From positions 16,706 through 80,705 of the forward strand of contig CACLVA010000006.1 of assembly GCA_902610315.1 (NCBI GenBank): a stretch of DNA of 64,000 nt. Reading direction: 5' to 3'. Positions 8,504 through 31,008 of the stretch are shown one piece after another. The position numbers and the translations under genes are program-made. This DNA comes from an uncultured Pelagibacteraceae bacterium (GTDB lineage Bacteria; Pseudomonadota; Alphaproteobacteria; Pelagibacterales; Pelagibacteraceae). Numbering within the stretch: position 1 is the stretch's first letter; every line of letters begins with the position of its first letter. The notes below the pieces were generated by a model. That model saw only the letters and a program-made list of their open reading frames with translations. It had not been told where the DNA came from and searched no databases.

Positions 8504-8815
8504 ATGAAAAATATAATTAATATATTTTTGATTTTGTCATTTGTCTCTTTATCGTCTTGTAAAACGGTACAGAATAAAGCTAATGAAGTTATTCAAAAAG
8601 AAGATAAGTATTTAATGAAATTTCTAAACAAAAAAAAAGATTTGTTGATTGCAGAATTTGGATACCCAGATTTGACAATGCCAAATGATGGAGAACCACC
8701 TGGTTCAGGAAAAATTATATATATTTCAAAAAAATACGGGATTAAATGCCAAAGAAGTTTTGAAATTGATGAAAGTGATTTTGTTGTAGGTTATTCTTCA
8801 AAAGGATGTTTTTAA
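8504..8815 (+). CDS. Small putative lipoprotein
   Basis: MKNIINIFLILSFVSLSSC signal peptide with lipobox; ORF open from 8486. Confidence 0.6.
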   Translation: MKNIINIFLILSFVSLSSCKTVQNKANEVIQKEDKYLMKFLNKKKDLLIAEFGYPDLTMPNDGEPPGSGKIIYISKKYGIKCQRSFEIDESDFVVGYSSKGCF

Positions 8816-28792: not shown

Positions 28793-29581
28793 TTATGCTG
28801 CTTTCCAACAGATTTGTTTAGATTTTGGTAATATAATTGAAGACATGTTTGTATTTTTTGCAAACAGATCATAAATGGTAGCAGAGGATTTCTCCTCTGC
28901 TGCTATCACTATATTTTCTGGGTCATGATCTTTTAGTTTCTCTAGACAAGCTTGTTGATCACCTGAAACTACGTTTGATCCTATTTTATACTTGGGAAGG
29001 GCAGAACAACCTTTGTTAGATTGGTATGATTTTTGATTTATCCAATCTGACAAAGAACCATCTGATCTTTTCTGTTTACCGTTTTTAGAGTCTCCACCTA
29101 TGTATTTATCTTCTTCAACATCTTTTTTGTAAGCCTTTATTGTTTGTTCATCAGCTTGAACATAAATACTCATATCCATACCTGATCTAAGAGCTTCAAT
29201 ATAAGATGAAACTGCATTAGCCATTCTTTTGCAGCCTCTGAAGAAGTGGTAAACTTTTGTTTGTATTACCTTAGAAAAAGATTTGATAATACAAGGTAGT
29301 TTATATAGTCCTAATGCTTTAGGATTATATTTGTAGATAGATCTACCAGACTTACTTTTTTCGCAATAATTTTCGTAAGTTTTCGCTTCTAGCAGATAAA
29401 TGATTGCTGAAGACAAGATGTCCTCAGCATCTAGTTGCTTAACACCTTTTTTCATCAAGATATTAAGCCACATGTTTCTTTGATTAGCATATAATTCGCC
29501 AACCATAGTCTTATACTCATTTAGTGTTGCTGGTTTAAGAGTATTTAACTCTGATGCAACATTACACATTACTTTCGCCAT
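28793..29581 (-). CDS. Sigma-70/ECF-like protein (region-2-like N-terminus), operon leader gene
   Basis: LDAEDILSSAIIYLLEA...FSKVIQTKVYHFFRGCKR resembles ECF region 2; strong SD AAGGAGG; no clear region 4. Confidence 0.4.
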   Translation of the reverse strand: MAKVMCNVASELNTLKPATLNEYKTMVGELYANQRNMWLNILMKKGVKQLDAEDILSSAIIYLLEAKTYENYCEKSKSGRSIYKYNPKALGLYKLPCIIKSFSKVIQTKVYHFFRGCKRMANAVSSYIEALRSGMDMSIYVQADEQTIKAYKKDVEEDKYIGGDSKNGKQKRSDGSLSDWINQKSYQSNKGCSALPKYKIGSNVVSGDQQACLEKLKDHDPENIVIAAEEKSSATIYDLFAKNTNMSSIILPKSKQICWKAA

Positions 29582-29604
29582 TTTTCCTCCTTGGTTATTG
29601 GCTC

Positions 29605-29683
29605 AAACCGAGGAAATTTGGCATGTGCAATTCGCATCTTTTAGGAACCAGAGGGCTCCTGTTGCGCAAACCACCTGCGGTTT
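29605..29683 (-). promoter_or_regulatory. Structured 5' leader of the sigma-like/GHKL/DruA operon
   Basis: Minus strand AAACCG(C)AGG ... CCTCGGTTT closing stem with inner hairpin GGAGCC-CTCT-GGTTCC. Confidence 0.45.
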
Positions 29684-29695
29684 ACTTGTTTATGT

Positions 29696-29715
29696 TATAT
29701 ATATATACCCCGGAC
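29696..29715 (-). promoter_or_regulatory. Island motif copy 1
   Basis: Minus-strand GTCCGGGGTATATATATATA. Confidence 0.65.
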
Positions 29716-29744
29716 GAAAAATCAAGGAAAATCAATGCTTATCT

Positions 29745-29768
29745 AACTATTCCAACGTTGGAATAGTT
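29745..29768. repeat. 24-bp perfect palindrome
   Basis: AACTATTCCAACGTTGGAATAGTT. Confidence 0.9.
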
Positions 29769-29773
29769 TTAAT

Positions 29774-30340
29774 TTATGAGGCTTTTCTTGTATTTACCTC
29801 AAACCAATAGGGATGTGTGTTGATAAAATTTGTTTTTTTACCAAATTTCTTTACCACTAGAAAACAAACAATACACCTTTTACGAGAATTCTTAGAATAT
29901 GTGATTAACTGCTTTTGAACTCTGTTTGGAACTTTTTTGGGGATTTTCCAAACTACCTTTAATTCAAGGATAATATTTTTTAGTTTTTTTGAATAAGGAA
30001 TAAATTCAAAGTCAAATCTAATATGTCTTTTATCTTTTGTATTTATTACAGACCATTTGTTATTATTTACAAAATTAAGCTTAAAATTATTTATTTTTTT
30101 TGTTTTTTGATAATTTACGATTTGTCCTAGTTTACTAAATTCAAAATAACCTCTTTTTATTATTGATTCTAATTGTTTAGAACAATTGATTAATTCCTTA
30201 GATCTTATTTTTTTTGTACTATATTTGAACATCAACTGAGCTTCAGTTATAGAGTCTTTTAAATTTTTCTCTTTAGCAAGTGCAAGGAAAATACCACGCT
30301 GTGCAGCATTTCCTATCTGAGGATATATTATCTTATTCAT
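29774..30340 (-). CDS. Unknown protein, possible PD-(D/E)XK nuclease core
   Basis: FDFEFIPYSKKLKNIILELKVVW (D...ExK) followed by QKQLITYSKNS helix. Confidence 0.45.
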   Translation of the reverse strand: MNKIIYPQIGNAAQRGIFLALAKEKNLKDSITEAQLMFKYSTKKIRSKELINCSKQLESIIKRGYFEFSKLGQIVNYQKTKKINNFKLNFVNNNKWSVINTKDKRHIRFDFEFIPYSKKLKNIILELKVVWKIPKKVPNRVQKQLITYSKNSRKRCIVCFLVVKKFGKKTNFINTHPYWFEVNTRKAS

Positions 30341-30343
30341 ATT

Positions 30344-30359
30344 TATATATACCCCGGAA
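30344..30359 (-). promoter_or_regulatory. Island motif copy 2
   Basis: Minus-strand TTCCGGGGTATATATA, 3 nt before the ATG at 30340. Confidence 0.6.
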
Positions 30360-30374
30360 ATACCAACAAAATAT

Positions 30375-30394
30375 GTCCGGGGTATATATATATA
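30375..30394 (+). promoter_or_regulatory. Island motif copy 3
   Basis: GTCCGGGGTATATATATATA, identical 20-mer to copy 1. Confidence 0.65.
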
Positions 30395-30524
30395 CGTTGG
30401 AGCTAATTTAAAGTTCTTTCAACTCAGATGTGAGATATAGCGATATACTCAAAGGTAACCTTTCTCCTAAGCCTCCTTTGTTATCATCTGAATGTCCTTT
30501 CTAGCTTTAGTTAGCTTCAACGTA
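30393..30524 (+). ncRNA. Candidate novel structured RNA (~132 nt)
   Basis: P1 TACGTTGGAGCTAA/TTAGCTTCAACGTA (13 of 14), P2 TCAGATG/CATCTGA, P3 TGAG(A)TATA-GCGA-TATACTCA, P4 AAGG-TAA-CCTT; starts at motif copy 3. Confidence 0.5.
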
Positions 30525-30543
30525 ATTTTAAAAATGGAGTTAT

Positions 30544-30847: not shown

Positions 30848-31008
30848 TGAAAAAAAATTTATATGCTCAAATGGCGAAACAGTTAGACGCGACAAGTAAA
30901 ACTTGTTCCACTACGGTGGGTACCAGTGCAAATCTGGTTTTGGGCACCATAGATGACTATATCTTGCAGGAAGAGATAGTTCCTCTTTCTGCAAAAAAAA
31001 ACTATTAA
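30847..31008 (+). CDS. 53-aa ORF (MKKNLYAQMAKQLDATS...) containing the tRNA-like element
   Basis: TAATG overlaps at both ends; may instead be chance read-through of the tRNA-like sequence. Confidence 0.3.
   Translation: MKKNLYAQMAKQLDATSKTCSTTVGTSANLVLGTIDDYILQEEIVPLSAKKNY
30865..30949 (+). tRNA. tRNA-Leu-like (type II) with aberrant anticodon loop; function uncertain
   Basis: GCTCAAA/TTTGGGC acceptor + A-CCA, GCG...CGC D stem, ACAAG-TAAAA-CTTGT, variable arm CCAC-TACG-GTGG, T arm ACCAG-TGCAAAT-CTGGT. Confidence 0.6.
30964..30994. repeat. 12-bp stem-loop after the tRNA-like element
   Basis: TTGCAGGAAGAG-atagttc-CTCTTTCTGCAA (one G-U). Confidence 0.7.

Follow-up and report, generated by a model that had tools for sequence, protein, structure and literature searches.

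A short element, CCGGRG abutting a TATATA box, stands at three places in a rare, defence-like genomic island of an uncultured Pelagibacteraceae bacterium, and we are fairly confident that the repeats represent a genuine, conserved promoter class serving a tiny island regulon. In the explanation that we favour, to which we give a probability of roughly 60% as a whole, the three repeats (P1, P2 and P3) would drive a private regulon of three units. Each repeat would combine a -10-type TATATA, some 5 nt ahead of the predicted start, with a CCGGRG extension upstream of it. A sigma-like protein encoded in the island (domain-2-like, without region 4) would bind RNA polymerase and read CCGGRG-TATA. 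Once active, it would boost its own operon from P1, give rise to a 188-aa protein from a leaderless mRNA at P2 and switch on a structured RNA unit at P3; a -35-like hexamer at P1 could allow the housekeeping sigma factor to give a basal supply. If true, a sigma-like factor and three-promoter regulon belonging to a defence-like island would be an unusual form of immunity control. We found no description of the promoter or of the island in the open-access papers searched.

The element and its island

In the window (the whole stretch of 64,000 nt that was analysed), the island forms an insert of ~6.7 kb (24982 to about 31687) between hisG and rmuC. It holds genes for DruA-like, GHKL ATPase, sigma-like and 188-aa proteins, a structured RNA, small ORFs and a tRNA-like gene (Table 1). 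Four complete Pelagibacter genomes show the island-free order, in which hisS-hisZ-hisG run directly into rmuC, with genes for Cas4-like and exonuclease I-like proteins and folC next in line. The rmuC, Cas4-like and exonuclease I-like genes were rejected as island genes, as island-free genomes have them at this position too. Six further islands were found, in G243 (L009/L013), AG-343-C02 (L012), AG-896-O18 (L014), G284 (L010), G145 (L011) and G550 (L053), all of them Pelagibacteraceae; as L010 and L011 are near-identical in the promoter part, the seven amount to about six independent lineages. The island is rare and defence-like, with a putative role in defence.

Table 1: Features of the island in the window (position 1 is the first letter of the window).
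Feature	Positions	Strand	Remarks
P1, GTCCGGGGTATATATATATA	29696..29715	-	exact TCCGGGGTATATATA at 29714-29700; before sigma-like/GHKL/DruA-like operon; position equal in 7/7 islands
P2, TTCCGGGGTATATATA	30344..30359	-	exact TCCGGGGTATATATA at 30358-30344; CCGGGG, 11 nt, ATG (30340) of 188-aa ORF
P3, GTCCGGGGTATATATATATA	30375..30394	+	exact TCCGGGGTATATATA at 30376-30390; predicted start ~30394, 5' helix of structured RNA
DruA-like protein, 658 aa	24982..26958	-	PF14236 E 1.1e-22; PADLOC DruA E 1.3e-121
GHKL/MutL-like ATPase, 602 aa	26971..28779	-	HATPase_c_3 E 1.5e-18; MzaB-like N-terminus
Sigma-like protein, 262 aa	28793..29581	-	domain-2-like, no region 4; candidate reader
Structured 5' leader of sigma-like operon	29582..29695	-	highly conserved; AACAGGAGCC..GTTCCTAAAAGATG
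188-aa protein, putative nuclease	29774..30340	-	conserved D..(15)..ExK in predicted beta-rich half
Structured non-coding RNA	30394..30528	+	long terminal helix, inner helix, hairpin
Small ORFs, 66, 99 and 73 aa, behind P3	30544..31655	+	together with tRNA-like gene (30865-30949)

The initial annotation had reported three copies of the repeat, each facing an island unit, with 20 of 20 nt common to copies 1 and 3 and no fourth copy seen by eye. All of this was borne out: exact matches lie at the places named, copies 1 and 3 are identical over GTCCGGGGTATATATATATA (20/20), and the units faced are the sigma-like/ATPase/DruA-like operon, the 188-aa ORF, and the structured RNA with the small ORFs. 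Across its own genome (1.06 Mb), TCCGGGGTATATATA has no exact copy beyond the three in the island, and a search allowing up to two mismatches added one weak site, against 10 for a reversed control pattern. CCGGGGTATA, found three times in the window, was absent from 60 second-order Markov simulations of it. The exact 15-mer is present in two of 297 family genomes, each time at the island, and in the sole other carrier it adjoins a homologue of the sigma-like gene. In four genomes tested for the generalised motif CCGGRGTATAWWTA, every occurrence was at an island. With the element at the same three places in 7/7 islands, the proposal that the motif tracks homologues of 28793-29581 is supported, as is the earlier reading of a -10-like TATATA with a CCGGGG extension.

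Spacing at P2 and P3 is constant. At P2, the interval of 11 nt between CCGGRG and the ATG of the putative nuclease ORF is kept in all seven islands; at P3, the 12th nucleotide after CCGGRG, a purine, opens the terminal helix of the RNA, the same distance as at P2. We infer transcription from P1-P3, its start points and its reader from such sequence features. P2 is predicted to yield a leaderless mRNA, a conventional untranslated leader being hardly possible because copy 2 ends 3 nt from the ATG, and P3 is predicted to yield a structured RNA that starts at its own helix. Neither P2 nor P3, which form an inverted, back-to-back pair, has a conserved -35 element in the seven islands. P1 keeps a TTGA-type hexamer upstream (TTGATT, TTGACT or TTGAAA; 29725-29720 in the window), in most cases with 16-18 nt separating it from a TATA box that is shifted.

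Two forms of the element and the candidate reader

The islands fall into two types: type A (window, L009, L012, L014), with CCGGGG at 12/12 sites, and type B (L053, L010, L011), with CCGGAG at P1 and P3 and CTGGAG at P2 (9/9 sites). Sigma-like proteins are 67-89% identical within type A and 64-96% within type B but 39-44% between types; for the 188-aa protein, the values are 75-96%, 51-97% and 44-48%, respectively. The form of the element follows the alleles of these two genes and not those of the ATPase, the DruA-like protein, the structured RNA or the tRNA-like gene. For example, the ATPase of the window (type A) is 93% identical to that of L011 (type B) and 63% to that of L014 (type A), and the DruA of L053 (type B) has its nearest relative in type A L014 (86%). 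The ATPase and DruA-like protein are disfavoured as readers, since their identities do not follow element type. In L053, RNA identity is 78-86% with type A and 63-65% with type B, yet the sites are of type B; this island appears to be a natural recombinant in which a type-B promoter precedes a type-A RNA and the genes for the sigma-like and 188-aa proteins are of type B. Such natural swaps of the two promoter forms represent ready-made tests of specificity.

Co-segregation partly reflects linkage, because P1-P3 lie on either side of the genes for the sigma-like and 188-aa proteins; that the three sites differ in concert carries more weight. The elements themselves are conserved although the stretch from P2 to P3 is only 52-67% identical overall between types.

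The 188-aa protein co-segregates with the element form just as well as the sigma-like protein does, which, together with the inverted arrangement of P2 and P3 and the -35-like hexamer at P1, would suit an operator: a repressor from the island, possibly the 188-aa protein, would bind CCGGRG and block TATA-box promoters of the housekeeping sigma factor. We regard this as unlikely, given that P2 and P3 lack a conserved -35 element and that two different promoters both keep 11 nt to the start, as suits a promoter element better than an operator. The structural model of the 188-aa protein, with N-terminal helices and what appears to be a nuclease-like C-terminal half, gave no fold match in Foldseek.

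A sigma-like reader is plausible, and the island protein of that kind probably reads the element. It carries the motifs DAED(I/V)(F/L)SS and FR(G/S)CKR. When short type-B members were compared with 20 alphaproteobacterial ECF sigma factors using hhalign, the score was 24.7, against a maximum of 16.7 in 40 column shuffles, with DAEDIFSS and FRTKISNYFRSCKR in register with the ECF region-2 motifs; type-A members alone gave no signal against ECF sigma factors. NCBIfam sigma70-ECF matched sigma-like proteins at E 0.003-0.008 and was the best weak match for two members; taken together, the profile matches to the sigma-70/ECF family spanned E 0.003-0.05, below every curated cut-off. Pfam Sigma70_r2 did not match these proteins and no region 4 (-35 recognition) was matched in profile searches of them; in the short type-B members, little sequence remains beyond the domain-2-like part. 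The AlphaFold model is mediocre (pLDDT 56), and its top ten Foldseek matches were all sigma factors, none of them significant (all E > 1). The sigma identity is likely but weak; we treat the protein as a divergent domain-2-only sigma-like protein and not as an established member of the family. Type A proteins contain an extra segment of several dozen residues that is missing from type B.

Related sites in pelagiphages

The element had also been called private to the island; this holds among chromosomes and fails among phages, where it precedes an accessory gene of pelagiphages. This gene encodes 57 aa and has CYGGRGTATA upstream, once or twice, in 5/5 homologues, counting the query and four relatives that are 86-40% identical. 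Three have a single form at 11 nt from the ATG (CCGGGG in L174, CCGGAG in L175, CTGGGG in L178); L176 and L177 have tandem pairs. Its neighbours match different phage types, HTVC010P-type phages in L174-L176 and an HTVC106P-type phage in L177, so that gene and promoter seem to travel together. Searches of IMG/VR with exact 15-mers returned 33 and 29 contigs, where the reversed control returned 7; these are mostly background, with ten GGAG contigs representing one pelagiphage lineage and two representing the 57-aa gene. Among 80 readable IMG/VR sites of CTGGGGTATATATA, the 11-nt spacing to an ATG occurred only at the 57-aa gene. Among the matches is a group of marine podoviruses with kinship to HTVC010P, and the L025 terL is 82-95% identical to those of most isolates in this group. 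Twelve isolate pelagiphages were without CYGGRGTATATA. At the level of sequence the phage link is solid, whereas what it means is a hypothesis; it ties the regulon to the HTVC010P group and poses the question of whether island or phage reads the promoter.

In HTVC010P-type phages (L162-L171), a single TCC-NNNN-TATATATA or close variant lies in the gap upstream of terL, facing away from terL, with CATG, GGTC or GGAG as middle letters and TCCGGAG in ten environmental contigs. This terL-side site is a candidate for the main promoter of these phages. Seven near-complete Pelagibacteraceae genomes contain no TCCSRDSTATATATA-type sites.

Both kinds of phage site—those at the 57-aa gene, three with the island's spacing, and the TCC-NNNN-TATATATA sites beside terL—would accord with a pelagiphage promoter class for which host polymerase, unaided or helped by a phage factor, is the reader; the island would have copied it for switching at the time of infection, leaving the sigma-like protein with some other task. 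However, phage and island sites need not have a common reader, L025 has TCCCATG beside terL but TCCGGGG at the 57-aa gene, and both island forms track island proteins; we therefore think this explanation improbable. Another reader may nevertheless exist, because phage sites occur where no sigma-like homologue was found: a pattern scan of IMG/VR yielded no sigma-like homologues, and searches there yielded no relatives of the 188-aa protein or ATPase. More speculatively, and with low odds, the 57-aa gene might be a conditional counter-defence gene, silent in ordinary hosts and turned on by the island sigma-like factor only in island-bearing cells; in the mirror image, the island would have borrowed a phage promoter for induction by infection.

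That the repeats are recombination or replication sites, or were kept merely by recent common descent of the islands, is very improbable: the islands are mosaic, with repeats near exchange boundaries, but the three sites change in concert, their spacing to two different starts is fixed and they are conserved within the divergent P2-P3 stretch.

Known systems and associated RNAs

A close parallel to the preferred reading, a private regulon under a sigma-like reader, is found in T4 late promoters. There, gp55, which belongs to the sigma family and resembles chiefly domain 2, recognises a -10 TATA, and the -35 is not conserved (PMC2988020). P2 and P3 are likewise -10-only TATA promoters without a conserved -35 in seven islands, whereas P1 has its -35-like hexamer. 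T4 sites have an 8-bp TATA box, unlike the CCGGRG extension abutting TATA at island sites, and no sliding-clamp co-activator was seen among the island genes here. With ECF sigma factors the island protein shares DAED..S and FR.CKR-type region 2 signatures, and control of its own operon would recall autoregulated regulons; it differs in its missing region 4, a TATA-type -10, the lack of a -35 at P2 and P3 and scores below family cut-offs.

Three defence systems offer partial likenesses. A DruA domain is present, as in Druantia, but no DruE helicase was matched among the island proteins scanned, a GHKL ATPase and sigma-like partner standing there instead. The ATPase N-terminus resembles MzaB of MZA (E 6.8e-16; 57.7 bits, where the cut-off is 850), but no other MzaA-E component was matched in the island. 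PADLOC mad5 of MADS weakly matches the window sigma-like protein (E 5.7e-4), but only this one of the seven members, and the island has no other mad protein.

An Rfam scan of the region, including the structured RNA and the P1 leader, gave no credible match. The structured RNA, present in 3/399 genomes of the genus and each time in an island, has nine pairs changed on both sides. The P1 leader has four, among them a paired change in L053, where the hairpin AGGAGCC..GTTCCT becomes AGCAGCC..GTTGCT.

The tRNA-like gene (model R2 extends to about 31005) has a class-II arm and altered D and T loops; its anticodon triplet varies (AAA, UUU, UUA), and two 3' hairpins carry complementary GACUAU/AUAG(U)C. 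It scores 130-183 bits in 7/297 genomes, other matches (≤64) being taken as ordinary tRNAs, and occurs also in L009, L010, L011, L014, L053, L152, L153 and L154. In the same rmuC/folC neighbourhood, L152 and L153 hold a different defence-like cassette, comprising a Vsr-like endonuclease, a DNA methylase and a large companion protein (which matches HATPase in L152), with the same tRNA-like gene and 73-aa ORF as the island and without the motif. In L154, the tRNA-like gene (8520-8667) is at another locus, in the groESL/typA region, where it adjoins a 340-aa ORF.
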